The notes below the pieces were generated by a model that was given only the letters and a program-made list of their open reading frames with translations, was not told the origin of the DNA and did not search any database. Source: Anisus vortex (taxonomy: Eukaryota; Mollusca; Gastropoda; Planorbidae). Taken from it: a stretch of DNA of 64,000 nucleotides. The translations under genes were made by a program, and so were the position numbers. Position 1 is the first letter of the stretch; every line of letters starts with the position of its first letter. The stretch is taken from positions 29,494,441 to 29,558,440 of the forward strand of contig OX421506.1 in the NCBI GenBank assembly GCA_949126835.1, read 5' to 3'. Of this stretch, positions 824-54,500 are shown in pieces.

Positions 824-3800
824 CTGCAAAAAAACGATTCCAAAAACAATTAAATTTAAAGAGAAATAAATATAAAGTATTATTGTTTACATATTTAAAA
901 ATCTAAATTGAATAATCATGTTTTAAGCTTCATACTGACTGACTATAATAACATGGTCTCATGTGCACAGGGCATGTATAATACTGAACTACCATGTCGA
1001 GCATATAAAGCCAGATAAAACTGCAACCCTCCCACTCTACAAACACACAAATGAGACTGTAGCAGATCTCTTTCTTCACTGCTCAGCATTTCAACGCCAA
1101 CGTAGGTTTAATATGTTTATCTCCCGAAAACACCCAATCTTCGAAACACTCTTTAAACCAGTTGTGAAAAGTCTGCAGTTTCTTCACCATAACCTCAGGC
1201 CGCAAGGCAAATGCCCAGACGGATTGTAGTGGATATAGTGGATTGGCGAGATTGGGTGGCGGCTAGTGTGTTTTTTTTAGTTCAATGTATACTGTAGTGG
1301 ACTTTATGGCTAAGGAGTATCACCAATTGGATGAGATATTCAAGCGATAAAAATGTTATATAATGACAACATATGCGTTTTCTACTATGAGTTCTTTGTT
1401 ACAAGACACGTACAATTAAAATTTGGGATCCATACAAACTCAGAAACTTTATTATAGCTATTAAGTGGCTCAGCATTATTGTTATGGTTTTATCTTTTTT
1501 TTTTATCTACCGCAACTTTAAACCTTATAATCTCATTTTAAAGTCTCTGTCATTTTTTTAGATTTTACAAAAAATTCCTTAAAACATTAAACATCCACAT
1601 TTAGTATTTACATTACAAAAATTAAATGTCAGTATTTTCTTACTTGTTATGGCTTCTATTTATAAATATGAAAGACAGTAATACAAACAAATAGGAAGAG
1701 AGAGAGTACAAGTACTTATAAATAAATAAATTGTAAATTACCTTGCTCTTTCTTTAATCTCATAATCTCATTGTCTAGGATCTCAGTCTGTACTCGTGTA
1801 GATTCTATTTTAAAAAAATGAAAAATGTCATTAAAACATTAAACATCCACATTTAATATTTTTCTGTACATATATATTTAAGTTTCTGTACTTGCTTTGG
1901 CTGCTATTTACGACGATGAGAGAAAGTAATGAAAGCAAATAGGGTGAGAGTTCAAGTAATTATAAATAAATAAATTGTAAATTACCTAGCTCTTTCTTTA
2001 ATCTCATAATCTCATTGTCGAGGCTCTCAAACTGTACTTGTTTAAATTCTATTTTTTAAATGAAAAATGTCATGAAAACATTAAACATTCACATTTAGTA
2101 GCCTATACTTACTTTACATAAATGTCAGTATTTTTCTACATGTTGTGGCTTTTATTTATAAATGTGAGAGACAGAAATAAAAACAAGGTGAAAACAATAA
2201 AACCTAAAATGACAATGAAACTCAAGCTAACATCCTCAACACACATTTTGCATCACCATTTTCAGCTCCAGATGACAAAGCAATCCCCATAAATTTAAAC
2301 AACATAGAAGAGTTAGGGAATATAAAATTTAGAAGAAAGAAGTCATTAACAAACTATTAACAAACTTACAAGTAAACAAACCTTCTGGTCCAGATGAAAT
2401 ACCTGCAAGACTTCTTAAAGAAATAATGAATTATCTCCAATCTTTAAAATACTTTTTTCAGGCCTCTCTAAGCCAGCGCAATGTGGCAAAGATTGGAAAT
2501 CAGCCAATCTAACCCCTCTTTAAAAAAAAAGATGATATTGACCCCGGAAATTACAAATATGTTTCCCTAACAAGACAACATGTAAAATACTTGTGCATAT
2601 AATATATTGTAGTATAGTAAATCATGTAAACAAACTTAATGCACTGCGCCCACACCAACATGGCTTCAGGAAAAACAGATCATGCGAAACTCAATTAATA
2701 GGTTTAATAGATGACTTGTCTAAGGGATTAGATAATAACAACCAAAAATACTATATATTACTAGATTTTTTCGAAAGCATTCGATAAAGTTCACCATTAT
2801 AGGTTACACAAAAATTTTTGGGCCATCTATGATACCTTACATCAGTGGATTTAAAACTTCCTTATAGGTAGATAAACAGTGGCTCAAAATCATCACCAAT
2901 ATCTTTAAACTCAGGAATTCCACAACAAACTGTTCTAGGACCATTACTATTTCTAATAGTAATGACTTACCCAATTCCATCAACACAGGAGCAAAAGTAA
3001 AATTATTTGCCGATGAATGTATAATTTATAGTATAATAAAGACAGAAAAAGATAGTGAACTTCTTACAGAAAGGCCGAGATGAACAATAGAAATGGGAAT
3101 CTAACTGGAGTATGTCTCTTCACAGAGAAAAATGCCAACTGCTATAACTATCCAAGAAAAACAAAAAAAAAATAATTACAAACTACTTCATTCATGGCAA
3201 AGAGCTAACCCAAACTAACAATGCAAAGTATTTAGGTGAATAATAATAATTATCTTGAAATCCTCATATTAATGAAGTAATTAAAAAATCGAATTAAACA
3301 TTAGGCGTCATTAAAAAGAAACTTTTACAAATTTAATAAGAATATAAAACTAAAATGCTATCTCACATTAGTTTGGCCTAAATTAGAATATGCATCATCT
3401 ATATGGGACCCATCAACTAAAGAAAACATTAAGATATAAGAAGAAATTCTGAAAAGAGCTGCAAGTTGCATTACTAATGAATATTCACTGATAAGAGTAA
3501 CACATAAATTTCAATCATTAAACAATGAAAGAGTAGTGGACAGAAGGACAAAGAGTAAAGTGTCAAGTAGTGTAGTAATAACACTTAATGCATTTAACTA
3601 TAATTTAGAAAATAGAACCCAATAGCAACCTGTTGCCATGCTCAAATAAACATATGAAATAAAAACTTTCCTAGTCCCTTAAGCGAGAACAAATGTATAT
3701 AAGTAGGACCTTCTATTTCCGATTGGCATTAAGGCATGGAATGGGTTGCCTGGACATACCAGGAAAACCTGAAATTTACAATGTTTTAAAACATAAATAA

Positions 3801-4949
3801 AAAAAAGAATAGACTCGGACCACGGATGAGCGTAGGGAGCAATAATCTTTTTATGGAAGTAGCGACTGTAAAATATAAGATAAGATAACAAATAGGAAGA
3901 AAAAGTACAAGCACTTATAAATAAATAAATTGTAAATTACCTAGCTCTTGGTTAAATCGCATAATCTCACTGTCTAGAATCTCAGTCTGTCCTTGTTTAG
4001 ATTCTATTTTTTTTAATGAAAAATGTCATTAAAAAATGAAACATCCAAATTTGTATTTGCTGTACATAAATGTCTGTATTTCAATATTTTTTGTGGCTTC
4101 TATTTATAAATACGAAAGAAAGTTATAAAAACAAATTGGAAGAGAGAGTTCAAGTAATTATAAATAAATAAATTGTAAATTACCAAGCTCTTGCTTTAAT
4201 CTCTTAATCTCATTCTCCAGGCTCTCAGTCTGTAATTGTTTAAATTCTTTTTTGAAAATGAAAAATGTCATTAAAACATTAAAATTCCAAATTTATAATG
4301 TACTGTTCATATATGTCAGTATTTTGTGCATGTTGTGGCTTTTATTTATCAATATGAGAGACAGTAATAAATAGGAAAAGAGACTTCAAGCACTTATAAA
4401 TAACAAAACAATTTAATTACCAAGATCTGGCTTTAATCTCTTAATCTTATTCTGTAGTCCCTCAGTCTGTGCTTTTTTAGACTATTTTTTTATTTTAAAA
4501 AAACATCATTAAAACATAAAAAATCCACATTTAGTATTTACTGAACATAATTATCTGTATTTCTGTACTCTGTGTGGCTTCTATTTATAAATATGAGAGA
4601 CAGTAATAAAAACAAATACCAAGAGAGACTTCAATTACTTATAAATAAATAAATTATAAATTACCTAGTTCTTGCTTTAATCTCTTAATCTCTTTATTAA
4701 GGCTTTCAGTCTGTTCTTGTTTAGATTCTATTTTATTAAATACAAAAATGTCATTACAACATGAAACAGCCACATTTAGTATTTACTATACATACATGTC
4801 TGTTTTTTTGTAATTGCTTTTGTTGCCATTTATAAACATGAGGAACAGTACTAAAAGCAAATAAGAAGAGAGACTTTAAGCACTAATCATATCATATCAT
4901 ATCATATATCATATATATATATAAATCTCAAAAGGAATATGTATGTATG

Positions 4950-4980
<31 letters not shown>

Positions 4981-7900
4981 GTATGTACATACCGCATAAT
5001 CTTTTTAAATACTGGACATAAAAACGTGAAATTTGCTACAAATATTCTTTGCGTTACGGCGGTGAACACTGTCAAGGTTTTAAAAAAATTAAAATGACCG
5101 CAGTGGTCAGTTTGGTCAAAAAACGCGAAAAAAACACAACTTTTGATTCACATTGTCTTTGCCAGTACAACTTTTTATAGTTTTTCGTCACAAAGTTAGA
5201 AAAAAAAGGATGCGCTGAGATTATTTTTATGACGTCATCAATCTTTGCGCATGGATTTTATAGCAATGAAGGGACATTTTTCATTCATGTTTAAATTGAC
5301 GTCATCAAACTATGTGCATGGATTTTTTATCTCAACTCAATGACGGAAACAAATTTTCTTCATGTTTAAATTGTCTACGTGCCGTAAACAACATAAATTC
5401 TTTACACTACCAATACTGTAGTTGATTTTCTTAATCTATCACTACTTTGATACTTTACACTATGAATACATGACTTAAAGCTAATTAATAATTTAAAACT
5501 TTACAAACATAGGACAAAGCAAATAGATTTAGCATTTTTTTTCTGTTTTCGGAAGTAATACCGACGCATTACTAAGCTTATTTAAACGCAGTGGTCCTGG
5601 TTACACTCTATATTTAAGCTTATAATTATATGGCGTCATCAAATTTTGCGTATTTATGCGTTTAAGAAGGGAACAAAATTTTGTTTTAATTTGCGTCGTA
5701 ATTTGTAGAATGCAATATTTAAATGGTTTAAGTAAAAAAATTAAGTTACCGGAAAATACTTTATCCCCGCTTAAGACAATTGCTTATAACTCCATGGGTT
5801 ATTTTATCCAGTTCCGAGAACTGGGCACCTTTAGGCTTATCGCCTTGGTAACGGCCATTGTTTTAATTACCGGGCAATGTTTAAATTACCGGGCAATGTT
5901 TATAATACCAGGCAATGTTTAAATTACCGGGCAATGTTTAAATTACCGGGCAATGTTTATAATACCGGACAATGTTTAAATTACCGGGCAATGTTTAAAT
6001 TACCGGGCAATGTTTATAATACCGGGCAATGTTTATAATACCGGGCAATGTTTAAATTACCGGGCAATGTTTAAATTACCGGGCAATGTTTATAATACCG
6101 GGCAATGTTTATAATACCGGGCAATGTTTAAATTACCGGGCAATGTTTAAATTACCGGGCAATGTTTATAATACCGGGCAATGTTTATAATACCGGGCAA
6201 TGTTTAAATTACCGGGCAATGTTTATAATACCGGGCAATGTTTATAATACCGGGCAATGTTAAAATTGCCGGAACTAAATTTTTAAAGTTTTTATTCGTG
6301 TCGTATACGTTTTATAAACATTATTTCATAAGGGTTTCATTTGTTATTGTTTTACATGTTGAATAGAAAAATTAATTCTAAGTTTGCTTCCAAAGCAACA
6401 ATAAATAAATAAATAGCAAAAAAACAAAAACAACACAACATAGGTCTGCGACTTAATGTTTGTCGTAAAAAAAATATATCAAACAATCATTAAAAAAAAA
6501 AAAGTAGTGTCGAATGTTCTTAATCAATGAATAGAACAAAATATATTCATGTTTTAATTTGCGTCGTAATTTATAGCGGGCAATTTTGTAATTGTTATAA
6601 TGGGTGATGAGTAATGATTTTAACGGGTAATTCATGTTGTAGCGGGCAAATAAAAAATTACCTCACGTTTAAATTCGTGTCGTAGGTCATGCGGGCAATC
6701 TCATTATAACTGCCTGAGTAGTTAGAGTGTATGTAAACATAACTTTTAGCCGGTTCGGAGGATCGGGCACATAACGGCTTGTATATATATAAATCTCAAA
6801 AGGAATATGTATGTATGTATGTGGCTGGCTGGCTGGCTGGCTGGCTGGGTATGTACATACCGCATAATCTTTTTAAATACTGGACATAAAAACGTGAAAT
6901 TTGCTACAAAAATTCTTTGCGTTACGGCGGTGAACACTGTCAAGGTTTTAAAAAAAATAAAATGACCGCAGTGGTCAGTTTGGTCAAAAAACGCGAATAA
7001 AACGACATATTTTGGGTTCATGTTAAAATTGCCGTTCCAACTTTTTATAGTTTTTCGATCGATCGCGCTAAAAAAATTAAAAAAAGGATGGCGTTGAGAT
7101 TTTTTCAGGATGACGTCATCAAAGTTTGCGCAGAGATAGCTAGCCGGCTTTTCGTTATGACGTCATCAAATTTTGCGTATTCATTTAAAATTAACTTTGC
7201 TTCAATGTTTGCTGATGTATTTTATGAATGAATAGAACAAAATATATTCACGTTTTAATTCGTGTCGTATACGAAATATAAACTTTTGTAGTTGTTGCGT
7301 GCATTCTCATTATAACTGCTTGAGTAGTAAGAGTGTATGTAAACATAACTTTTAGCTTTTTCAATTCGTTTGAAGCGGGCGTATACGCATTAAAATCTTT
7401 CTAGCGGGAAATATTTCACGTTTCAATTCTTTTCTAGAGGGCAATATTTCACGTTTCAATTCGTTTCTAGCGGGCAATATTTCACGTTGCAGTTCGTTTC
7501 GGTTGTAGCGGGCGTACAAAATGTCATTCACATTTTAATTTGTGACGTATACATCGATAAACTTTTTAACGGGTGGGGTTTTATTAATTGCCGTATATAT
7601 TAACTGTGAAGCGGGAAATCTCATTATAACTTTAGGCTTATCGCCTTGGTAACAACCATTGTTTAAATTACCGGGCAAGGTTTAAATTACCGGGTAATGT
7701 TTATAATACCGGGCAATGTTTAAATTACCGGGCAATGTTTAAATTACCGGACAATGTCTAAATTACCGGGCAATGTTTATATTACCGGGCAATGTTTAAT
7801 TTGCCGGGCAATGTTCAAATTGCCGGAACTAACTTTTTAAAGTTTTAATTCGTGTCGTATACGTTTTATAAACATTATTTCATATGGGTTTCATTTGTTA

Positions 7901-10900
7901 TTGTTTTACATGTTCAATAGAAAATTTAATTCTAAGTTTGCTTCCAAAGCAACAATAATAAATAAATAGCAAATAACAAAAACAAAACAACATAGGTCTG
8001 CGACTTAATGTTTGTCGTGTCGTAAAAAAACATATCAAACAATCATTTTCTTTTTTAATAAAAATACTGTCGAATGTTCTTTATCAATGAATAGAACAAA
8101 ATATATTTACGTTTTAATTTGCGTCGTAATTTATAACGGGCAATTTTTTAATTGTTATAATGGGTAATGGGTAATGATTTTAACGGGTAATTTTATGTTG
8201 TAGCGGGCAAATTAGACATTACCTCACGTTTAAATTCATGTCGTAGGTCATGCGGGCAGTCTCATTATAACTGCTTGAGTAGTTAGAGTGTATGTAAACA
8301 TAGCTTTTAGCCGGTTCGGAGGACCGGGCACATAACGGCTTGTAAATAAATAAATTATAAATTACCTAGCTCTTGCTTTAATCTCATAATCTCATTCTCC
8401 AGGCTCTCAGTCTGTACTTGTTTAAATTCTTTTTTGAAAATAAAAAAGCTCATTAAAACATTGAAATTCCACATTTTGAATGTACTGTACATATATGTCA
8501 GTATTTTGTACATGTTGTGGCTTTTATTTATAAATATGAGATACAGTAATAAAAATAAATGGGAAGAGAGACATATAAATTTTAAAAAAATGTAAATTAC
8601 CTTGCTCTTGGTTTAATCTCATAATCTCATGGTCTAGGATATCAGTTTTTGCTTGATTAGATTCTATTTTATTAAATAAAAAATGTCATTAAAACATGAA
8701 ACATCCAAATTTTGTATTAGTGTACATATACATGTCTTTATTTCCAAACTTATTGTGGCTTCTTTTATAAATATGAGAGATGGGAAGAAAACAAAAGGAA
8801 GAGAAAGAGAGAGAGAGAGAGAGTTCAAGCACATATAAATATATAAAATTACCGTTAGTTACAGTGGCGTAGCTTGGGATTTGGGGGCCCGGGGGGCTTG
8901 GCCTCTTTGGGGGCCCCTGCATTTTGACATTCAATATTATGACATGAGATAATGTACTTAATAAAAATATTAGTATGAATTCAAATTTCTACATTATATC
9001 AGTAAAATTGACAAAAAATAATCATTAAGACTCTTTTAATTAACAATACCGTTGTTTATTTGCGAGATAATGCACAAGTGACAAATCTCAATTCATATCG
9101 ACTCACGTTGTGCTTTCTATGCAGCAAAGATATATATAACATCATCTAGATTCTAGATCATAGGTTCTCAACCTTTTTCGGCTCACCGCCCCCTTTTTAA
9201 ACAAAAATTCCGCTCACCGCTCCCCCCCCCCCACCCCCGAACTTTCTTTTATCGCCCAGTTGGGCTTTTTCAGAAGTACATCGAAGCACTCAAAGTGGAG
9301 TTTTCTAATCAATGGCAAGTCTTTCAAATTGATGGACACATTTTTTCATACCACATCAAACCTAACTGGTTTGATCTTACTACAACCTTCTTAGATGTAG
9401 ATCTTTTTTTTTTTAAGTGGAGGAATATTGGCAATTTTAAAATGGAGCAAGTTGAATTTTAAATATTTAAAAAAGGCATCCATATTTGCCCATATGCGGA
9501 AAAAAATCTGTAAGGAGTAAGGAAGCTGCTTAGGAAAGTCATCTGCTATTCTCAACTGCTTGGCATTTGCTCATTTACTTTCAGCTTTTGGTTCAAATTA
9601 CACATGTAAACAGATTTTATCGCACATCAAAGCTGTTTTAAGCATACAAAGAGGTCACCTACAATTGACCAATCATTAATTGATACAGACTAATTATATT
9701 TAAACGAGTTTTAATGCTCATCTTCTTTAATTAAACATAAATAAAATTAACTCTAAAACAAATTTATTTGTATAATTAATTTAGAAATATAAGAGACTTA
9801 TTTAATGGTTCTATATTAAGTAATTTGTGTAATTATTAATGTTTAAAATATAAACTCCTTAAATCGACAAACAATTAAAGCAGTTAATGTTTATTTACAG
9901 CTGTTTATTTTAAATCTTTTAAATATTCTAATAATTAAATCTTGTTATGAATACCATAATGTTAAATGTATATAAAGAAATAATAATAATCAGTAATATT
10001 TGTTACATTACAAAACAAAACTTGTTCGGCATCACTATTGAATCAAATGTGGAAACATTTTTTTAATATAAAGGGAGATAATTAGCCCGTTTCATTTGAG
10101 CTAATATTTCTAATGTTTTTTCTTTTATAAAAAAATTAATGGCTTACAATTTATAACGTTGAAATGATCAAACTGTAAAAAATATTAGAAAATTATATAA
10201 ATATTATAGGACTAAATAATTTATATGTATATTTTTAAGCATTACAATAGCTACCCAGTTTTTATGATAACTATGTATTTATACCGATTAACGATAGCAT
10301 AATTATGTTATTGCCCCAGACAATCTCCAACGGTCCAGCTTTCAAGTGCCAAAGATGCGACAGAGCCTGTCTCTCAAGGATAGGTCTCCACAGACACAGT
10401 CAATTTTGCAGGGCTGGCCAAATCACAGTAGCGCAAATCTAATTGTCTTTCGAGACTATGGAGCCAATGATGATGATGAATCATGTTATATAATTTTAGG
10501 TTTAAAACATATTAAGGACGGTAAAACTGATATCAAAATATCATTAACATTAGCAGATGTTAGGGCGACAGTGATCGGTCAGCAAGGTTGACAGTCCAGT
10601 GAACCAACCACAGGACCAGCCGGCTGCACACCACAAGCTTATTTACCAAATACTGACCCCTACTTCATCGAAAAGTCATTGCGATTCCTATAAAATTTTT
10701 CATTGGAAAATCGATTGCAAGGATGGGAAAATTGATTGCAAGGATGGGAAAATTGATTGCAAGGGTGGGAAAATTGACTGCAAGGATGGGAAAATTGATT
10801 GCAAGGGTGGGAAAATTGATCGAAAAACCCAATATACGAACTATTAGCCTTCTATTTATGTCTATGGACAGATGGATTATAGCATGGACATAAAATAGAA

Positions 10901-13900
10901 GATACCCAGGGCCGTGTTAATGATTGTGGGGGCCCTGTTCCCAAATGTATGTGGGGCCCCTCCTGGCCTCGTCTCTGCTTTCCACATACCTTAGAAGAGA
11001 AGTGCCGTTAATTCATGCTACATTGTGTAAAATCATAAATAAATTGTATGTCTCGCTCAGCTTGGTTGGACTGGAGTGCTTAAAATTGTGGGGGAATAAA
11101 TGCATTTTATTTGAAATTTTCAACGAAAGAATGGGGATGTCACTAAAAAAAATATTTATGGGATGTGTGGGGGACCCTTTTATGTGGGGGCCCCTGTTCC
11201 AATGGAACATGTGGAACATGACTAAATACGTCACTGAAGATACCGATAAAATGCCGTCAAGATAACGTGTTTTACAAAAACCGGAGTTATATATGTATTG
11301 ACAGTTTTTAGTAAACTTTTTACCAGTTTTTACATGCGTGTTGGTATACGTAATTTTGAAATCCTTAATATGTGTGGAATACATGCAACAGGGTCACTAA
11401 CTTATATAACAACGTGAATAGCAATATTACATGGCAGCGGCGTAATATTTAATATTTAATGTAAAAAAATAAATAATTCGGACACTCCTTTGGGGGCCCC
11501 CCTCAAAGTGGGGGCCCGGGGGGGATTTTCAAATTCGCCCCCCCTCCCCCCACCCTAGCTACGCCACTGGTTAGTTAATTTATAAATATGTTTATATACG
11601 TGTGTGTGTGTGTGTTTATATATTTCTTCTCTATAGCCTCCTAGGTCGTTTAACGCATCAGGACAAAAGTTAAATACATAAATTGGAAACGTTTTGGTGC
11701 TTATGAAAGAAAACATGTAATAATGATAAACTATGCCCAAAATGCTAACATATTTCATTTATATATAAAAAAAAGAATCCTGTTTCGCAGAAATTCACCT
11801 TCGGTGGTAAAAACTAGAACTAATCAAGCTAGGTAAGCGAGTGACGATACCGAGTAAATTGTAATCCTATAGTTTGATTATCAATTTTACACTATTATCA
11901 CCAGCACTTCAAGGGTCACCAAATAAAATTACTGACATTTCTACAGTCATGATCTTCGTTATTTCGAGTATTTAATATACTGGTAATAAAACTTTTTACA
12001 AAAAAAAGCTTATAGTAGGGATACTAAATATACAATAAGATGGAATATATTTTAAAAAATAAAAAAATAAAACAAGTTGCAGTTGTAGTCATTCTCCGTT
12101 ATTTTGAAGGGCTTTAAGACTAGTAAATATATAAATTGTAAATTACCAAGCTCTTGCTTTAATCTCACGATCTCTCTCTTTACACTCTTAATATGTCTTT
12201 GTTTAGATTCTATTTGTAACAAGAAATTGTTATTAAAACATGAAACATTCACATTTAGAATTTACTGAACATAAATTATGTATGTATTTCTGTACTTGTT
12301 GTGGCTTCTCTCTTTGAACTCTATTTATAAATATGAGAGACATACTGCATGTGTCCCCCCTAGCTGAGTGGTTAGCTTATGTGACTGTCAAGCGGACAAC
12401 CTGGGTTCCATTCCCCACTTATATTTTTATTTAAGCTCTTTTAAATTTCCATTAATATTTTTTTTTTTTAGATTTCAAAGAATTTTAGGACTTAAAAACA
12501 ATTTCTGTATTTGCTGTGTCTGCTATTTATAAACTTAAGAGACAGTACAAAAAGCAAATAAGAGAAAGAGTTCAAGTATTTATAAATAAATTGTAAATTA
12601 CCAAGCTCTTGCTTTAATCTCTTAATCTCATTATCCATGCTCTCAGTCTGTACTTGTTTAAATTCTTTTTTGAAAATGAAAAATGTCATTAAAACATTAA
12701 AATTCCACATTTAGAATGTCATATACATAATATATTTCAGTATTTTGTACATGTTGTGGCTTTTATTTATAAATATGAGATACAGTAATAAAAATAAATG
12801 GGAAGTGAGACTTCAAGCACTTATAAATATAAAAAAAATGTAAATTACCTTGCTCTTGGGGTTTTCTTTGATAAGATTCTAATTTTTTAAATGAAAAATG
12901 TAATTAAAACCTTGAAACAACCAAATTTAGTATTTAATTTACATATAAATAACTGTAGGCTTTTTTTCGAACAAAAAGGAAGAGAGAGTGTAAGCACTTA
13001 TCAATATATATAATTACCGTTAGTTCATTTATAAATATATATTATATAGATGGTAAACTTCGTTTACAAAGAAAGGGAGTATAATAAAAACTTGGTTTTT
13101 ATGGGATAGTTTTTTTTTACAATATTTATTTTATATAACTTTTTAAAATCTTTTCCGTAAAAAAAATATTATATTTTTAAAATTAACATAACTTTCTGTT
13201 CATTAAAGATTACACATTTATAATCAATAGCTATAGCCTATATAATCGTACCAGGGTGATGCCGGCCAATTGAGCTTGTTAAAAAAATTGTACATTACCT
13301 AGCCCTAATTTTAATCTTTTAATCTCATTCTGTAGTCCCTCAGTCTGTACTTTTTTAGACTCTATTTTTTTTTATTAAAAAAAAAATCATTAAAACATGA
13401 AACATACACATTTAGTATTTACTGTACATAGTTATATTATGTATTTCTTTACTTGTTATGGCTTCTATTTATAAATATGAGAGTTTGTAGTAAAACAAAA
13501 TAGGAAGAGATTTCAATCACTTATAAATAAATAAATTAAAAATTACCTAGTTCTTGCTTTAATCTCATAATCTCATTATTTAGGCTCTCAGTCTGTCCTT
13601 GTTTAGATTCTATTTGTTTTAAATATATAAAAAAAATTCATTTAAACATGAAACATCTACATTTAGTATTTACTGTACATATCTTCCTTTATTTATGTAC
13701 CTGTTGTAGCTTCTGTTTATAAATATGAGAGACAGTAATACAAACTAATAGTGAGATAGTTCAAGTACTTTTCTATATATATATATATATTAAGTACAAT
13801 GTATGTGGGGATTCCAATCCCGATTGGTTAATTTAAAGACACGTGACAATATTTTTATATTTTACTTGACACGTTATAAATTGCAGAACGGTGCTTCACC

Positions 13901-19900: not shown

Positions 19901-21116
19901 ACGCCCATTAAGTGTACCTGAACAAAAATGTTATTATATTTAACAAAAATATTATTATTTGTGTATGCTTTTTTAACTTTCCATTGAGTGGAATCATACA
20001 AATCTATGTTCTACTAATAATGAACAATGAAAAATGCAAATTTCATTCAGCTCTGAAAACAAATAAAAAGTAATTAAAAGAAAGGAAATTTTTGTAAATG
20101 AAAATTTGTTTAGCTAAAAGAGTTTTAAAAGTTGTTAGGTGATTTAACTAAACTTTATAAAGTTTAACGAATAGTTGTTTCAGATTGCCTCCCTTTGGTG
20201 ATGAGGCGATACGAAAAATTTGAAAGGAAAACCCTAAATTCAATATATAAATTCATTCAACAAGTAAACAATCAATTCTAAGTTATTTACAATATAACAA
20301 ACCATTTTCCGCCTTCATATTTACTAAAGAATTATTCAATGTCCCCAAGCAATCGTTAAGTGTACCTGAACAAAAATGTTATTTTAAACATTATTTATAA
20401 ACTTTACATTGTGTTGAATTATTCAAATCTGTACAAAGCATCATATCTTTTTATCGTTGTATAATAAATTGTTAAAACTAAGCAAATTTTATACTTTGTA
20501 TTTCTAATATTGTTGTTGTTGTTGTTTGTTATTGTTTAATTCTTAAGGGGAGACAAGACAACATTTACCTTCAACTGTTTTCAGTTCATTGATTTCATCA
20601 TCTTGAGTGGCCAATCTATCATCAGAAGAAGCTGTAATACACCGGTAATTGCATGCATTTAAAACTCTGGTGTATTTCTAACTACAAAAACTTTGGTTGA
20701 TAAATTTCAATCCCATTTGATACATAAGAGCAAGTGAAGTAAAATTCATAATTTTCTGTTGCCACGTCGTACATTGTGATTGTGTGGTTAGCACAATGCC
20801 CGACCACCTTAATTATCCACAACTACTGTCAGACCACCCAACAGAGCTAGTTAGACTAAGGGACAACTTCCATACCCTGGAACAAATTCTAGCATTCACC
20901 ACGATTCAAGTCCATTACCATAGGTACGACAGTAAGCGTGCTTCTACTCTAGCGCCATGCCACACTAGTAATGAATAAATTGTGAACATGCTAAATACTA
21001 AAACTATAGCTCCTTGTTTATTATTCATTCTTTATATTTAAATAACAAACTACATAACTACAAACATAAAATAAACGCATTTTTATTAAAAGAGTGTACT
21101 AACATAACCTTCTTCA

Positions 21117-21154
<38 letters not shown>

Positions 21155-24100
21155 TAAGATGATAAGATAAGATGATAAGATAAGATGATAAGATAAGATG
21201 ATAAGATAAGATGATAAGATAAGATGATAAGATAAGATAAGATTAGATTAGATTAGTTAGATAGATGATAGATTGATAGATAGATAGATAAGATGATAAG
21301 ATAAGATGATAAGATAAGATGATAAGATAAGATGATAAGATAAGATGATAAGATAAGATGATAAGATAAGATGATAAGATAAGATTAGATAAGATTAGTT
21401 AGATAGATGATAGATAGATAGATAGATAGATAGATAGACAGATAGACAGATAGAAAGATAGATAGATAGATCGATAGATAGATAGATAGATGGATAGAAA
21501 GATAGATAGATAGATAGATAGTTTTGATCTAGCTTGGCTTTCATTTTTTTAGCCGAAGCCCAGAGGGGTGATTGGGGAGTAACAGTTTCTTGTCAGAAAT
21601 TAGTTTTTACAAAGGTAGGTAAAGTAGAAAGATTGTTTGAAATTCTTCATAATGGATAACAGATTGTTAAGAATCTATGTTATCTTCTTCTTTAAATGGT
21701 CTTGTTATGACTCATTATTTCTGGGTTTAATTATTTCTTGCATGTTTATGAAGCCTTTTTAATCTGCTTGCTGGCATCGGGGCTAGGGGCTTCACTTGAT
21801 GTCAGTTTCCACAGCTCCTTCTATGGTGCTATTAGTCTAATATACTTGCTTTCAAAACCTCTCATTCAACAGTGGTAGTAATTCCACAAATACAGGTGTT
21901 GAACAAAAGTAACTTTTTTTTTCAGAATGAAAGGTATATACAGGAAAATATAGTCTATGTACAAAACACTGGGCGAGAACTTAATTTTACAAGTTTTAAA
22001 CTACTCTCTGCAAACGTTCCAATAGGGGGGCATGGTGGCCGTGTGGCAGTGCTTTCAGCTGGTGCACCGAAGGCCCTGGGTTTGAATCCTGGTGCAGGAT
22101 ATTTTCCCTTGTCTGGAGGGCCTCCCTGAGTCTACCCAGCTCTGATGGGTACCTGACCTTAGTTGGGGTAGAGTAAAGCGGCTGGGCATTGTGCTGGCCA
22201 CACAATCACCTAGTATGCCGTGGCCACAGAAACTGGTGAACGCTGCTTCACCTGACGTATGGATCAATTTGGTCCGACTGATACTTTATTACTTACTACA
22301 AACGTTCAAACCAAACGGACTAAACTAAAACGGGACCCCAGGAGGTAAGGAAAATCTCTAATTGGATGAAAAATCATGATTTTTTACAGGGCTCAGATAG
22401 TCAATCTACGAATTATAATTCAAAATCCTCGACTTTCACGGGATGGATACTGAAGTATTTAATTTAATTTAAAATAATATCCTAAAGGTCTTAATTCCCC
22501 CTTCTCGTTGGACTCTTATATGGACAATGAAGTGTCCATGCAAAGTACTATTATATATTTGTAACTCAAGTTTGTAACAGTCTGAATAAAGTGATAAGAA
22601 ACAATAAGACCTAAACCTATACAATTAATTGCGATGTGTTTTCCAAGTCTGTCTCACTCCCGTATGGTTTATGTAAATAGATGTTTTTTGTAGCGAAAAA
22701 CTACATCAAGCTGTTTCATAAAATGGGAAATTACCTTTTTCTGTATTAAGCTTTATAACTTCCCTTGCCTTCAAGTTAAGTTCTTGATTTAATTCATCTT
22801 TAATAGAAATATACGAATTAGTGTTATATTTCTTTTATATGTATTCCATTAATATAAGAAATATAGCACAGACCCTACTAATTATGAGATTTACTATCTA
22901 CGGTCAATTATGAAAACATAACACAGTAGCCAATATCTAAAGAGCTATATAAAAAATTAAAAGAAAAGTTAAATTCATAATACATATTACATATATACAT
23001 TGTAATGAGTATTTTGAGGTAGCCTGGTGTTTGTCGAATACAAGATCTAATACAAGTTTTATTCCGATAGAAATTATATTCATTAAATTACTGATAACAA
23101 CTCACACTATTTAAATTGAAGTAACATCATGGATTTTTTTGTTGCAAATTGGTAATTAATTAATGTCTACTCAGAGCTGTATATTTCGAAACAAATAGAC
23201 TTACCTTGTACTTTATTTAGCTTTACAATTTCCTCGTCTTTCAGATTTAATTCTTGATTTAAATCATCTTTTACAGAAATATAAGAATGTATCTAATATT
23301 TATAGAATAAGTTACATAAAAATAGAATAAATATAAGATAGGTTAGATTCTACTAATAACGAACAATGAATGCTACAAATCACAGTCAGCTCGGAAACCA
23401 TGAGACTGAATTCTTAAGATAAAATGTATATACACAATTAAAAGAAAAGTAATATTAGATATGGATTCTTGTAGTTCTTCTTAAGGGATAATAATATTTG
23501 AGTGAAATATATCTATATACCTATCATAATCCATGATATCAAAAAGGAAATTTTGTGTAAATGACATTTCGTTTAGCTAAAAGACTTAATAACCCTCAAT
23601 GAAATGATGCTGCAGATTACCTCCATTTTTAGACTAGGCACATAAAATACTCTGTGAGAGGCACGCGCAACATCAACAACACTTGTACCATGTATTTGTT
23701 GATTTTAAAAAGGCATTCGACAGGGTCTGGCACGCTGCCCTATGGGCAACCATGAAACATTTCAACATTAATGACAACCTGACAATGCTGATACGTAGCC
23801 TCTATGACAGGGCCACCAGTGCAGTCTTCTTCAGCAACAACATTGGAGATTGGTTTAGGACTACCGTTGGAGTAGGACAAGGATGCTTGCTTTCGCCAAC
23901 ACTGTTCAATATCTTTTTGTAGAGAATCATGTCGGATGCACTAGAGGATCATGAAGGGACAATCAGCATAAATGGCAGAAGAATCACCAACCTTCGATTC
24001 GCAGATGATATAGATGGACTCGCCGGGAGCGAGGAAGAATTAGCCAATCTTGTGGAGCGACTGGACAAAACTTCCGCATCCTATGGCATGCAAATCAGTG

Positions 24101-27100
24101 CCGAAAAAAACTAAATTAATGACTAGTAACACCAGCGGCATCGCCACGCAGATCAAGATTGGTGGGCAGAGTTTGGAAACAGTAGGCAGCTTCAAATACC
24201 TAGGAGCTATTGTATCCGAAGAGGGCTCCAAACCAGAAGTAATGTCCAGGATTGCCCCGACAACAGCGTCATTAAAGAGGCCCAAGACAATATGGAAAGA
24301 CAAGGACTTAGCCCTCAGCACCAAAATCAGGCTGATACGCTCACTGGTCCTCTCCATTTTTTTATATGGTTGTGAGTCATGGACATTAACCGCTGAGCTG
24401 GAAAAAAAGATAAATGCCATGGAAATGAGATGTTTCAGGACCCTGCTCGGTATCTGTTACAAAGACCATATTTCCAACGAACAGATACGAGAGAGAATAC
24501 AACAGGAAATTGGAAAATATAAAGACCTGCTGGCCACAGCCAAGAAAAGAAAACTGGAATGGTATGGCCACGTCACCAGAACCAACGGGCTTACAAAGAC
24601 AATCCTGCAGGGTACCACCAGAGGAGGCAGAAACAGAGGAAGACAAAAGAAGCGTTGGGAAGATAATATCAGAGAATGGACAGGTACAAAACTGTGCGAG
24701 GCAATGAGAACGGCTGAGAGACGGGAGGAATGGAGGAGGCTGGTTTACATGTCATCTGTGGCGCCCCAACGGTCCAACAGACTACGGGATATGTAGGACA
24801 TACAAATTTACGAAGGAAAACCCAAAATGATCTACATTCAATCTATACATAGATTCAACAAATAAAGAATCAATTTTAACGTAGGCCTATTTATTTTTGA
24901 AATTACAAACCATTTTCCGCCTTCATCTTAGATAAAGTATCATTCAATGTCTCCAAACGCCCATTATGTTCACCTGAAAGAAAAATGTTATTATTAATTG
25001 TTGTATGATTTTGTAACTTTCCATTGAGTGGAATCGTTCAAATGTATAGATATATTCACATGCATAAGTCATTGTTGTATACTAAATTGATACAATTTAT
25101 CATAATATTTACTTCGTATTTACATTCTTATTTTCTGTTGTTTTTTTCTTTATTTTTATTGTTTAATTTTTTAAGGGGAGATCAGCCTACATTTACCTTC
25201 AAGTGTTTTCAGTCGATTGATTTCATCATCTTGAGCAGCCAATTTATTATCAGAAGAAGCTGTAAGATAATTACATCCATTGAAAACTCAGGTGTATTTC
25301 TAAATACAATAGATTTAATTGATAAATTTCAATCCCATGTGAACCATAGGGGCAAGTGAAGCAACACTTCCAATTTTTATCCGGCCACATCAAACAATGT
25401 TATGCTCCTGTGACTAAGATATTACAAACAAAACTATGGGGGCACAGTGGCCGAGGGGCAGCGCGTTCGACTGGCAATCCGAAGTTTCTGGGTTCGAATC
25501 CTGGTGGAGACTAGGATTTTTTCCAGGGATATGAGGGTGTCGGGTCTACCCAGCTCTGATGGGTACCTGACATTAGTTGGGGTAAAGTAAAGGCAGCTGG
25601 GCATTGTGCTGGCCATACATCCCCTAGTATGTCATGGCCAAAGAAACTGGTGAACGCTGCTTCACCAGCCCTACGATCAGTTTGGTCCGAAGGGTACTTT
25701 ACTTCTTTTTTAGTGCAAGTGAAACAACACTTACAATTTTTCTCTGGCCACAGCATACAATGGTATGTCCTATGACAAAGATATTTCAAACAAAACCTCA
25801 CAATAAACGAAAAAAAATATACGTATCTGGAGTGCTTTTAAATCAGAACCAAGCCTGTGCATATGAGCTTTCATAGTCTACAATTTACAATATAATATAG
25901 GATAGAAAAATCCAAAACAAACAGCTGATGCCTTGCCGAAAGTTTTGGTTGATGAAATATTTAAAGATAAATATCATTTATACGTCATGATATCAGTAAT
26001 GAAAGTATCCGTAAATCAAAATTGTAAATTTGAGCTAACAGACCTTATTCTTATCTGATTATTTAGAGTAACACAATAAAAATCAAAGAATAGATAGTTC
26101 AGTTAACCTTCCTTCTGAGCTCTAAAGTTTTAAAATTTAGAAATAAAAAACCCAAATGCTCTAAATTTAACTCAAATCTTGATTAAACGAATAAACAATT
26201 TAATATCAAGTTATTTATGAAATGGCAAACCTTTTTCTACATTTGTCTTAGCCAAAGGCTTATTTAATGATTCCAAACGTTCATTAAGCATACATTGAGC
26301 ATACATTTTATTCTATTCCTGATTTATAAAACGTAAATTGATTTTCATCGTACAAATCTATAGACAGAATTGCTTGCATTGTTCTACAATAAGACAATAT
26401 TGTTTTTGTTTTTTAGACTACAACAAAACAACTATCATACTAAGTTAATTAGCAAGAAGAAATTACACTAAATTTACAGTCAACTGTTTGAAGAAGTAAA
26501 ATAAAAGTAACATTTAGTAATTGATTCTTATACTTCTTCTTAAAGTCTGATAATAATTAGAGAAAGTTATTTATAAATCGATCATAAGTCATGATACCAG
26601 GAAGCAAATTAATATATTTTAATGAATTATTTTTAGGAAACATAGATGTTGGAATATCTAGACCTAATAAAAGTCAATTACCTCTATTTTAATGTTAGGC
26701 ACTTCAAAAAATTAGAAAGGAAAACCCTAAATGATCTAAATTCAATCTATAAATAGATTCAACAAAAAACTGTGTAACTTTTTCACTAAATAACTAACCA
26801 TTTTCTGATGTCATCTTAGCCAAAGAATCATTCAATGTCTCCAATTGCTCATTAAGTGTACCTGAACAAAAATGCAATTTCAAACACGATTTATAAAATT
26901 TACATTGAGTTAAATCGTACAAGTCTATAATAAGCGTTACATGTACTAGTAATGGCTGTATACTTAATTGTTAACTTTGTATTTACATTGCTTTTTTGTT
27001 GATGTTTAGTTCTTAATGGGAGACTAGACGACTTTTACCTTTAACTTTTTTCAGTCGATTGATATCATCCTCTTGAGTGGCCAATCTATCATCAGAAGAA

Positions 27101-30100
27101 GCTGTAATATAATTACATGAATTTAAAACTCTGATATATTTCTAAATACAAGATCTTTGATTAATAAATTTTAGTCCAATTCAATCTATAGGACACGAGA
27201 AGCAGCAATTATACAATCATAAAACCATTTGAAATACATGAGTGTTTGACGTATTTATTGAAGAAATGATCTGATAAGACTAAAAGAGAGACTCCAGAAG
27301 GTGCAGAACAATGCTGCACGCATAGTATCTCTGGTCGAGAGGTCCGCTCACATCACCCCTATACTTAGGGATCTCCACTGGCTCCCCGTGCAAAAGCGAA
27401 TTGAATTTAAGCTTCTTTCCCTGGCATTCAGCTGCTTGGATGGCACTGCACCTAGCTATCTTCAAAACATTCTTACAACATATGTTCCAGCAAGAGATCT
27501 CCGTTCAAGTGAAAAGTCATTACTTAGGACTCCCAGTCTTATTGGACATAGAAAGAAAACCTTTGGAGTTCGCGCCTTTGAGGCGGTGGCGCCCGTATTA
27601 TGGAACAATTTGCCTATTTCACTAAGGCAAACTGAAGCAAAGTCTTTTAAAAAGAACCTGAAGTCTTATATGTTTAAGTAATCATTGTCTAATTTGTGCT
27701 CTTGTATCTATGTCATGACAGCGCACTGAGCATGCTATTATAGCATGGATAGTTGCGCTATAAAAGTGCTCATTATTATTATTATTATTATTAAAAGTTT
27801 TGCGAAAAGAATATAAAGTTGTTAAATTTACTAATTCTACACAACTGTTTTAATGCAACAACATTATCTATTTATTGTAAATTGAATAGAAATATTGATT
27901 AACTAATGATTACAAACACCTTTAGCCTATATTTATATTATCTTATACATTACAGACGCTCCTTCTATAAAGAAGATTATTGCGTCCTACGCTCATCCGT
28001 GGTCCGAGTCTAGTCTTGCATTTTTATTAATGTTTTAAATGATGTTCAGTTACTGGTTTTTCTGGTTTGTTCAGGCAACCCATTACATGCCCGAATGCCA
28101 CTCGGAAAGAAAGAGTACTTATATGCATTTGTTCTGGCATAAGGGACAAGGAAAGTGTTTTTGTCTTTATGTTTATCTGAGCTTTGCAACAGGTTGATAT
28201 TGGGTTGTATTTCTAAATTAGAGTTTAATTCCTTATGTAGTATTACTACTTTACTCTTTGCCCTTCTGTCCTCTAGTGTTTCTAGGTTTAGTGATTTGAC
28301 TAATGGTGTTATTCTTTTTAACTGGGACTATTCAATGGTTATGAACCTTGCAGCTCTTTTTTTTTTGGATTTGTTCTAATTTTTAAATGTTTTCTTTAGT
28401 TGATGGATCCCAAACAGGTGCTGCATATTCTAGTATAGGTCTAACTAATGTGAGATAGCATTTTAGTTTTATATTCTTATTACATTTGTAAAAGTTCCTT
28501 TTTATGAATCCTAATGTTTTGTTTGATTTTTTAATTACTTCATCAATATGAGGGTTCCAAGATAACTTATCATTTATTATTACTCCTAGATACTTAGTAT
28601 TGTTAGTTTGAGTTAGTTCTTTACCATGAATGAAGTAGTTTGCTATTATTTGTTTCTTTTTCTTGGATATCCTTATGGAGGAGTCTTAATTAGGTGTGAC
28701 CTTTTGAACTGTAATGTTCGTGAACTTCCTGTTCTATTGTTAAAATAATAAACAAAAAAAAACATGCTTTTGCTGGTGTTTGACAGTTGATTTCAACCTC
28801 GACGGCCAGTTCTAGTCTTTTAGAATTATACAAAGGATACAATATTAGTTATGAGGAATCCGTTTTTAACATCAAAAGTGAGTAGGCGATAATTAATACT
28901 CAAGTGTCAGTCGCGTGAGGTAAAATGTTTATTTGTTTACAAAATAAATGAGTCAAGAGTTGCGTTTTCTTGGTTATTGAAAAACAAAATGCGTAAATTC
29001 ATAAATACGAATAACAAAAATTCTTTTCAAATCTTTTGCATTAAGCAATAAGTTTTATATTTTAAAAAGGTGATTTTTCACTTCTGACTTCCACAATACA
29101 TTTTTTTATTTTGTAAACATCTTTTGGAAATGAAATAAATTTTAATCCCCAACAAATTTGAGTACAACCAGTAAAGTAGCACACAGACATTGTTTCGAAG
29201 AAAATGATCGAATAAGAACGGAAATGTTTTTGCATGTGACCTTTTATGCATGCATACACGTTAATACTTGTCCATTAGTTGGCATTTTTCTGGGTGAAAA
29301 GACATACTCCAGTTTGATTCTCATTTTTGTAGTTCATCTAGTCTAGATCTAGGTCTTTTTGTAAAAGTTCACTATCTTTTCCTGACTTTATTATTCTATA
29401 TATTATGCAATCATCTGCAAATAGTCTTACTTTTGTTCCTGTGTTGATGCAATTTGGCAGATCATTAATATAAATTAGAAATAGTAGGGGTCCTAGAACA
29501 GTTCCTTGTGGAACTCCTGAGTTTACAGTTATTGGTAATGACTTAGAGCCATTTATTACCACAGTTTGTTCTCTGCCTATAAGAAAGTCCTGAATCCACT
29601 GATGTAAGGGACCAGAGATACCAAAATATTTTATTTTTTTTAGTTGTTTTTTTTTTCAAAAGAAAATAGGATTACCTTTTTCTTCCATAAGCTTTAGAAT
29701 TTCCTCTTTCTTCAGGTTTAATTCTTGTTCCAAATTATCTTTTATAGACATATAAGAATATATGTAATATGTATAGAAAAATTACATACCCTGTAAATAA
29801 TATAATAAATACAAGATAAGCCCTATTAATAATAAATAATGAATGCAACGGTCAGCTAAAAAAAAATGACAATGAATTCTACATGTAAAAAGTTACATAA
29901 ATAATTGTTTTTAAAGGAGATATTAATAAAAAATAAATCTAGATTTGTGTCTTTCATTTTAAGGGGATATATTTAGAGATAAATATCGATATACCAATCA
30001 TAAGTCATGATATCAGTAAGTAAAATAAACTTAGATGAAAATTGTACATTTGAGTAAACAGACTTTGCATTATCTTTACTCCAAAACAAATATCGCATAG

Positions 30101-33100
30101 CTTATCCAATAGACAATTAGTTTTAGTCTGGCTAATAAGCCTACGCCAATCACTGATAAGCACTATGAAATAGCTAACTTTCCTTTTATTTAAATAACTC
30201 AAATATCAGGCTTGTTTTCGCCTTGAGAATAAGTTGAGTACAGTTAGACGTGCACAATTAGGGAGACGACTGGTTAAATAAAGCCTTTAGTATTTCATTA
30301 TATAGATTCATTTCGATGTATTCAAACTTATACTGTATTATATTTCCTGTGGATTGCATTCTTTGCCTCGACTTTAAATGAAATGTGTCTATTGTTAATT
30401 TTCTACCTTATTGAATAATAAATGTCTAGTGATGGTATGTGTCAAGTTAGGCTATATGTTATTATATGAATTACATTAAAGAGCCACGAACTCATGATAT
30501 AAATGTGTTTGACGTATCAACTTAGGAATCGAATGCACTTCAGCGGCCATTACCTCTGGACAACAAGCGAAGACACAGTCTAGCCCAGATAGTGTCTCAT
30601 CTTCCATTCTACTTATAACATTTACTTTGAAATAATTAGTATATGAGCTCTGCATACAGTTTTATTAGTAATTATCAGATACGCTGCTACACAATTGACC
30701 TCCCAAGGTTAAGCTCCGGCACTTTAAAATTTAGAACGGATAACCCAAAATATTCTAAATTCAACTCAAAACAATAATGAACAAATAAATAATTAATCGT
30801 AACTTATTAGTGAAATTACGAACCTTTTTTCACATTCGTCTTAGCCAATAAATTCTTCAACGTCTCCAAACGCTCGTTAAGTGTACCTGAGCAAAAAACG
30901 TTTGTATTCATAATTTATGAATTTACATTGAGTTAAATCATTTAAATCTATTTTTAAAAAAACATCACATTTATTAATCGTTGTTGTATAATTATATTTG
31001 TATAACTGAGCATAACTATTGTTTTGATGTTGTTTAATTTTAAATGAGAAAGTAGGCCTACACTGAATTTACCTTCAACCTAACATTAATAATTGATGCT
31101 TGTACTTCTTGTGAAGGTCTGATCAGAATTAGACACCGTAATAACAAGAAGGGAAATATTGTTAAATGACACTTTTATTTTGTTCAATATTTCAGACGCT
31201 CATTGTATACAGAAGATTATTGCGTCCTACACTCATCCATATTCTGAGTCTAGTTAAGCATTTTTATTAGTGTTTTAATTAAAAGATGTTAAGGTATTAT
31301 TTTTCCTGGTCTGTTCAGCCAACCCATTCCATGCCCGTTCGGCAATTTGGAAGAAAGTGTACTTATTTAATATATGCATTTGTTCTCGCATAAGTGATAA
31401 GGATAGTGTTTTTGTCATTATTTTTATCTGAGCACTTTAACAGTTTGTTATTGTGTTGTATTTGTAAATAAGAAATTATCGGTAAAACATTATGTATTAT
31501 TACTCATTTACTCTTTACCCTTCTGTTATCTAGTGTTTGTAGGTTTAGCGATTTTACTATTGGTGTTACTCTTTTCAGTTGTGAATATTCGCTTGTAATG
31601 AACTTTCAATTCTTATTTTATATAGTTCAGAGGCTCCTTCTATACAGAAGATATATTATTGCGTCCTACGCTCATCCATGGTCCGAGTCTAGTCATACAT
31701 CTTTATGAATGTTTTAAATGATGTTATAAGTTACTGGTTTTCCTGGGTGTCCTAGACTTAATAAAATTCAACAAATATATGCTACAGATTACCTCCATTT
31801 TAAGATTAGTCAATTAAAATTAAGAAAGGTAAACCAAATGATGCAAATTTAATGTGTAAATTGATTCAATAAATAAACAAGCAATATTAACTGATTTAAG
31901 AAGTAACAAACCATTTTTAGCTTTCATCCTAACAAACGAATCATTCAATGTCTCCAAACGTTCATTAAGTGTACCTGAAAGAAAATGTTATCTTATTTAT
32001 AATGTATAACCTTTTCATTGAGTTGAATAATACAAATCTATATCACATGTTTTCACTGTTGTATACTAAATTTTTAAAACATAGCATGATTTTTGCTTTT
32101 TATTTACTTTGTTTGTTGTTGTTTTGTGTATGTTATTTTGTTTAATTCATAAGGCTAAGGGTAGATCAGACAACATTTACCTTCAACTGCTTTTAGTCGA
32201 TTGATTTCGTCGTCTTGAGTGGCCAATATATCTTCATAAGAAGCTGTAATAAAATTGCATGCATTTAAAACTCTGGTGTACAGTATCTTTGATTGATAAA
32301 TAAATATGTTTTTAAATTTTATTTTTCAGACCTATTTGATTCATATTGCAATTTACAAGATTCTGAGCCTACTGCATACAAACGGATATGTGGCCAGCAC
32401 AATGCGCAATCATCTTACGTATCCCCAATTACTATAAGGCACTCGCCAAAGCTAGATAAGCTACCCTCCATAACAGGCGAAATAGCCTAGCATTTAACAA
32501 GTTTTGAACCCAGAACCTTCCGTACTCTAGCCCAGCGCGCTGCCACTGAACCACCGTGTTCACATTAGTAATGAACAAATTGTTGACACAATAATTACTC
32601 AAATTATTACTAATACTAATTACCATTGCTTATTCTTTATATTTAAATAACATCACAAACATAGTTTAAAAGCATATTCAATGAATAGGGTGTCGGAGGG
32701 CCTAACACAGACCTGCCTACCCGTACGCTTTGGGCGTATTTTCGTACGCTTTAGGATACAAAATACGGCTGTTACACCGAGCGTCTTAAAAATACGACTT
32801 CTTGAATAAAAAAATACGATTTCGCAATTTTTCGTTTTATTTCTTTTCTTTTTGGTAATTAGACGATCACTAAACCGCAGTTACATAAAACCGATGTTTT
32901 GATTGGTCGAAAATGGATATCGTCTGTTTCAATAACTAATTTGTTAAACGGCGCGGCGACCTTGACCTGATATCCTTTTTTTCCTCTCGCAAATATCCAA
33001 ATTCGGCGATAAAAAGTATGGCTGACACTGACAGAAAACTTACACCGCGTGCAGGAAATCATGAAACAGATGACGAAGAAGCTTCCGAGTTTGCTCCGAG

Positions 33101-54100: not shown

Positions 54101-54458
54101 TGTGATCAATCTTTATTTTAAATCAGCCTACTTACTGTACTAATGTCAGCGTCAAGCCTTTGGATTGACTCTTTATGGGTTTCTAAAACTTTAACTTTTG
54201 ATCCAATATCCAATACTTCTGTATAGCTCATCCTCTACATAGACAAGGCTTAGAAATTGCACGCACACACAAAAGAAGAAATGTACATGAGTAATGTGTG
54301 GTTTCTACATTTATAAAAAAAAATCAGTAGTTTGATACCATATTATAGTTTATTATAGACATAGATCGAATTAGCATAAGTTTTACAGTTTCATAAAATA
54401 TGTTATTTAGAACCGATAACAGACTAATACTTGCAGGGTAGAAAAGACTATCACACAC

Positions 54459-54500
<42 letters not shown>

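Follow-up and report, generated by a model that had tools for sequence, protein, structure and literature searches.

A gastropod gene with an array of symmetrical 63-nucleotide exons, predicted to encode a coiled-coil rod, and its shorter tandem paralog

The gene and its exon array

The 64,000-nucleotide (nt) stretch of contig OX421506.1 from the planorbid snail Anisus vortex (assembly GCA_949126835.1, positions 29,494,441 to 29,558,440), hereafter the window, carries on its minus strand a protein-coding gene, gene 1, the middle of which is an array of small exons. Coordinates are positions in the window; negative values lie to its left and values above 64,000 to its right. A first-pass annotation of this DNA had recognized 42 array loci between 32243 and 1742, of which 39 are 63 nt long (one of them without an acceptor) and the other three 61, 54, and 30 nt, and these counts were reproduced. 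It had also given this interval as that of the gene. That a single protein-coding gene holds the array was borne out, but the interval proved too short: traced with the contig flanks, the gene runs from an ATG at 54231 to a stop at 371, with the array as its central part.

The plan of gene 1 comprises five 5' exons (N1 to N5), the array, a further exon (E), and two short 3' exons (T1 and T2), and the joined exons give 1060 amino acids (aa) in one open frame with a single terminal stop, a frame that omits the 61-nt unit, the acceptor-less copy, and a decayed copy (Table 1). The exons outside the array were placed by comparing gene 1 with a sister gene, gene 2, described below. An in-frame TAG sits two codons upstream of the ATG in N1. 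The predicted N terminus, MSYTEVLDIGSK, has no hydrophobic leader apparent by eye, so that the product looks intracellular. At the other end, our first 3' end, a read-through exon at 489-428, was dropped in favor of T1 and T2 after the comparison with gene 2; T2 is the weakest exon call of the model, the alternative being that T1 reads through to the stop at 428. Two noncoding stretches of the minus strand, around the ATG exon and 5' of it (55424-54808 and 54441-53914), share about 75% identity with gene 2 and might correspond to a promoter or a 5' untranslated region.

The phase-1 boundaries ascribed to the 63-nt units by the first-pass annotation were recovered throughout: all 38 units picked for intact length and splice sites are preceded by AG, followed by GT, and open in phase 1. 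No phase-1 stop occurs in any of them, and each of the other two frames contains stops in all 38, a contrast that partly reflects shared ancestry. The intact units fall into four types (A, 4; B, 6; C, 4; D, 24), arranged along the direction of transcription as ABBC, AB(b), ABCC, and ABBC, then D only, with (b) standing for the acceptor-less B copy. A profile scan that did not require an open frame returned as extra strong matches only the acceptor-less copy, the 61-, 54-, and 30-nt units, and the decayed copy, the last of which lies beyond the 42 loci recognized earlier. In-phase array exons number 40 in gene 1: the 38 of 63 nt, the one of 54 nt, and the one of 30 nt. Relative to a 21-residue module, the 54-nt unit is short by 3 residues and the 30-nt unit by 11, breaks of register that we take to be stutter- and stammer-like in coiled-coil terms. 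Inclusion of the 61-nt unit shifts the frame, the first stop coming after 743 of 888 residues in an array construct. The array introns also contain a 19-nt tandem repeat, at 5852-6272 (21.8 copies) and at 7660-7826 (8.8 copies).

Splice sites differ among the types. The acceptors of type D are A-rich beside the AG, and the donors of type B begin with GTT in all six intact units (GTTTGT, GTTCGT, or GTTAGT), those of types A, C, and D beginning with GTA; in gene 2, two of the three B donors begin with GTT. These D acceptors and B donors look weak by eye, and the GTT-donor B units are candidates for regulated inclusion. Such sites would suit an array whose exons are cassettes and in which regulated skipping yields rods of many lengths, much as described for schistosome micro-exon genes, each in-phase exon being freely skippable, and an open frame in any case requires skipping or other splicing of the 61-nt unit and of the acceptor-less B copy. 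Weak-looking splice sites, a judgment made by eye, can nevertheless be constitutive, and we regard this scenario, which is compatible with the reading proposed below and goes further, as conceivable rather than probable.

Table 1. Exons and array units of gene 1 in the window
Feature	Length	Position	Strand	Remarks
N1	96 nt	54231-54136	minus	start codon + MSYTEVLDIGSKVKVLETHKESIQRLDADIST; phase-0 donor GTAAGT; 24/32 residues identical to gene 2
N2	118 nt	53410-53293	minus	WLQKGISWIEAEKKHTYLEIKQLLDDGIAEFYRRCFIIA; phase 0 to 1; 28/39 residues identical to gene 2
N3	69 nt	51840-51772	minus	phase 1 to 1; aligns with gene 2, splice sites in common
N4	245 nt	51413-51169	minus	phase 1 to 0; long, helical-looking; 69% identity over 80 residues with gene 2
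N5	55 nt	50474-50420	minus	phase 0 to 1; precedes array
Array front		32243-19409	minus	14 intact 63-nt units of types A, B, and C, plus (b)
Intact B units with GTT donors		31974, 30886, 26861, 24973, 20365, 19917	minus	
Acceptor-less B copy (b)	63-nt body	26293-26231	minus	acceptor lost
Array rear		19014-1742	minus	24 intact 63-nt type-D units, plus 54-, 30-, and 61-nt units
54-nt unit	54 nt	15478-15425	minus	
30-nt unit	30 nt	12878-12849	minus	
61-nt unit	61 nt	4481-4421	minus	frame-breaking
Decayed D copy		~1569-1507	minus	without splice sites
E	63 nt	823-761	minus	phase 1/1; DNSNRWIDSNRETFQSIQHFI; best a/d offset as in array; gene 2 homologue at -40165
T1	42 nt	489-448	minus	phase 1/1; 51 nt in gene 2
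T2, coding part		387-371	minus	YYFFQ stop, beside AATAAA at 375; placed by analogy with gene 2

Heptad register and constraint on the units

Each 63-nt unit had been described in the first-pass annotation as three heptads with core positions 3, 7, 10, 14, 17, and 21. The 38 joined units have a hydrophobic period of 3.50 residues, with a power of 9.27; the highest power among 1000 within-unit shuffles was 1.28. The best a/d offset is common to 37 of the 39 units considered in gene 1 (38 intact units and E) and to 9 of the 11 in gene 2 (10 intact units and E), the rest being ties; the 54- and 30-nt units are omitted from these counts. Similarly, the best alignment between types A to D is in register for five of the six type pairs. 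The proposed core stands as a common register but not as a set of positions that are hydrophobic in every unit: I, L, M, V, or F occupies positions 3, 7, 10, 14, 17, and 21 in 0.24, 0.42, 0.76, 0.92, 0.95, and 0.58 of the units, respectively, in the type D consensus, positions 3 and 7 are K and T, and type A lacks all five of these hydrophobic residues at 3, 10, and 21. In Pfam, the first 483 aa of the array gave coiled-coil-type matches, of which ATG16 alone exceeded the cut-off. Periodicity, unit offsets, and Pfam matches all point to the continuous heptad pattern of a coiled coil, and the product is probably a coiled-coil rod, which, if unbroken, would be about 126 nm long (34 nm for gene 2).

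Since the exon length is a multiple both of 3 nt and of 7 residues, the gain, loss, or skipping of an exon keeps the frame and the register, as the first-pass annotation had pointed out. Random exon subsets ended in a single terminal stop in 1000 of 1000 cases (in a construct with the read-through 3' exon), which is an arithmetic consequence of this length; the rule fails for the 61-nt unit, which shifts the frame.

The open frames of the units were compared with a simulation using matched changes from the family consensus, in which 17.4 ± 3.0 units contained stops (minimum, 9 in 2000 runs) against 0 of 38 observed; the simulation, a star model with local base composition and independent units, overcounts changes inherited by several copies and overstates the power of the comparison. 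Within types, the ratio of nonsynonymous to synonymous divergence (dN/dS, as a ratio of means) is 0.56 for B (15 of 15 pairs usable), 0.49 for C (6 of 6), and 0.53 for D (274 of 276), type A being considered below. Exons are 71-86% identical by type, and the flanking introns of the same pairs are 44-79% identical and gap-rich, with 1.1-2.1 gap openings per 63 columns, the exons being gapless by the selection of units. Amino-acid constraint on the array units is real but modest.

This modest dN/dS, together with the altered or decayed copies at 26293, 12878, 4481, and 1569 and the retroelement-like sequence in the region, might be taken to indicate a dying gene, the array being a relic whose intact units survive through recent duplication. 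We consider this unlikely, given that all 38 units are stop-free even though within-type pairs differ on average at 14-29% of exon sites, that the 5' and 3' exons are open and constrained relative to gene 2, and that two of the three changed unit lengths (54 and 30 nt) are multiples of 3. As frame and register are kept on exon loss, decayed copies can be dropped.

A tandem paralog and the growth of the array

Gene 2 is a tandem sister of gene 1 located to the left of the window on the same strand, with coding exons from -22616 to -40860. It follows the plan of gene 1, and its joined exons give 458 aa with a single terminal stop. Ten intact array units were found in it, in the order A B B C A B C D D D, with an extra C copy without AG after the first B. 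In the constant exons, 135 of 213 residues are identical between the two genes, and dN and dS amount to 0.206 and 0.357, respectively (ratio, 0.58; bootstrap, 0.39-0.91). As read from the two genes, the arrays of these tandem paralogs differ about fourfold in length, with 40 and 10 in-phase units found, in keeping with the earlier proposal that whole exons change coil length. Types A to D occur in both genes, so that the four types are most simply older than the gene duplication, and the expansion of type D would most simply have taken place mainly in gene 1.

In a tree of the 24 intact D units, the sister pairs 13361/14117 (94/89) and 13609/14366 (94/91) and a group of six units of one subtype (100/99) show that exon blocks were duplicated. 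Near-identical tandem exons with similar splice sites would also be compatible with mutually exclusive choice, known from arthropod Dscam, in which one or few of the exons enter each messenger RNA. One heptad register extends, however, across four types in repeated ABBC-like blocks, and gene 2 retains all four types with ABC-type units ahead of D, both of which make such a choice very improbable. Genes with mutually exclusive splicing have tandem-duplicated exons and, as described in the excerpts consulted, swap one copy for another (PMC9741552); the register common to the units suggests that the snail copies are instead added end to end.

Other copies lie farther away. Part of the front block (B C, a decayed B, and A B) recurs in inverted orientation on the plus strand at 128364-132113, a further instance of block duplication; its matching blocks are 78-87% identical to 31078-24841 of the window. 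N1- and N2-like pieces at -104154 and -104971 represent a diverged third copy, near which an exon scan from -104000 to -149900 found no recognizable array. With a 65-nt D unit as query against the 863-Mb assembly, at least nine matching places were found, all of them within the window.

We propose, with a probability of roughly 0.8, that gene 1 is an apparently functional gastropod gene, a member of a small local family, whose product has a long coiled-coil rod between a conserved N-terminal segment and a short C-terminal tail, and that its array grows by exon-block duplication. The anatomy, frame, register, block duplication, and array difference between paralogs, all legible in the genome, carry this proposal. 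According to our model, the rod would be encoded by symmetrical 63-nt phase-1 exons of three heptads apiece, the array would grow as exon blocks duplicate along with their introns, and whole-exon gain, loss, or skipping would leave frame and register intact. Transcripts that join the array exons would be expected, and the length of the rod may matter, for example, in a spacer or scaffold.

Several points weigh against this proposal. The gene model was read from genomic DNA alone, and the 61-nt unit, which breaks the frame if included, was left out together with the acceptor-less and decayed copies. The dN/dS ratio of type A is as high as 0.87 (5 of 6 pairs usable), and amino-acid changes from the family consensus number 205, compared with 236 ± 7 in neutral simulation. 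Applying the same permutation to all units reaches the observed 3.5-residue power in 6.4% of 2000 cases, so that the register argument depends on agreement among several unit types; types C and D fit better when rotated by 14, and exon E is top-ranked in register with only one of the four types. Full support is reached on only 2 of the 21 inner branches of the D tree, and the count of 10 units in gene 2 was obtained with gene 1 profiles and 63-nt exons, a scan that diverged units may escape. Lastly, both protein searches with joined array units were empty and yielded no relatives in other species: 714 aa (34 units) had no match at E ≤ 1e-5 among the 7993 length-limited candidates listed, and 315 aa (15 chosen units) had none at E ≤ 10 among 7992 such candidates, each a weak negative.

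Neighboring sequences and known exon arrays

Pfam returned nothing above the cut-off for the N-terminal 194 aa or for gene 2. Against PDB, the first 483 aa of the array had no match at E ≤ 0.01, and the first 197 aa of gene 2 had weak matches only, to keratin (E 0.024 and 0.032) and to a splicing factor (0.42). Snail GIMAPs carry coiled coils, and an identity as a GIMAP/AIG1 GTPase was considered and rejected, the AIG1 domain being absent in the Pfam scans of the N-terminal 194 aa and of gene 2. The minus frames over 48701-62170 and 1-1735 matched no family, and of two loose P-loop-like motifs in the window, one is broken by a stop and neither stands in an AIG1 context by eye.

A trypsin-like exon at 62173-63041 (minus) was rejected as part of gene 1, whose ATG at 54231 comes only after the stop that ends this exon. 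It forms the last exon of a separate neighboring gene and matches Trypsin_2 weakly (E 0.006, short of the cut-off), and 18 of 627 candidate proteins match it, the 17 named ones all from gastropods (snails and slugs) and the best from Bulinus truncatus (42%). Between genes 1 and 2, an open reading frame at -9487 to -9086 (minus) scores 21.0 bits as a C-type lectin (cut-off, 22.6); it was set aside as the head of gene 2, the ATG exon of which is at -22616. The minus strand of the window also carries gag/pol regions of long terminal repeat retroelements at 33927-38556 and 44722-48645; an element of about 0.6 kb splits the first of these near 36500-37056 and is found inverted, by eye, in an array intron near 28680-29270. 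Tandem repeats of one 26-nt unit occupy 49693-49961 (10.3 copies, open in two frames) and 39462-39588 (4.9 copies).

Comparison with known exon-array systems draws here on excerpts of the cited papers. Exons of the schistosome micro-exon genes (MEGs) are typically shorter than the 63-nt units and are not known to be copies of one another. The coding region of MEGs consists mostly of very small symmetrical exons, alternative splicing of which gives proteins differing by few residues, and their products have been linked to secretions and glands (PMC4350168). Gene 1 resembles them in its small symmetrical exons (40 in-phase array exons and E, 30-63 nt, phase 1/1) and differs in that its product has no leader by eye and that heptad coupling is not mentioned for MEGs in the excerpts of that paper (PMC4350168). 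In the bicycle genes of aphids, the internal exons are small and numerous, and nearly every one begins at codon position 2 (termed exon phase 2); protein length tracks exon number, a megacycle gene has more than 100 microexons, and the family is discussed as putative effectors of plant-feeding insects (PMC9168663). All snail array exons likewise begin at the second codon base, a structural likeness and not evidence of kinship, whereas single-length, heptad-tied exons are not mentioned in the excerpts of the bicycle gene paper (PMC9168663). Snail AIG1/GIMAP genes, a family of gastropods whose members are often arrayed in tandem, encode coiled coils next to a head domain (PMC7053062); gene 1 shares with them the tandem gastropod family and the predicted coiled coils, and no AIG1 domain was found in its N-terminal 194 aa or in gene 2. 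The novelty claimed by the first-pass annotation has thus to be narrowed: genes built from numerous small exons that share a phase are known, as in schistosomes and aphids, but none of the matches listed from the open-access full-text literature describes exons that are equal-length copies coupled to heptads.

No array exon exceeds 21 codons, so that automatic annotation could readily overlook or fragment genes of this kind. More speculatively, and in our view doubtfully, the snail family could be a dedicated genomic ruler in which every exon would serve as a module of three heptads and in which splicing choice within a cell type, and unequal crossing-over between generations, would both set the length of the rod by increments of about 3 nm with frame and register kept. 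Exon length, intron phase, and protein repeat fit one another cleanly in this naturally occurring array, and the tandem paralog pair displays the outcome, with the same ends and a roughly fourfold difference in predicted rod length. Such a paralog system would make it testable whether the length of a coiled coil is selected, regulated by splicing, or drifting.

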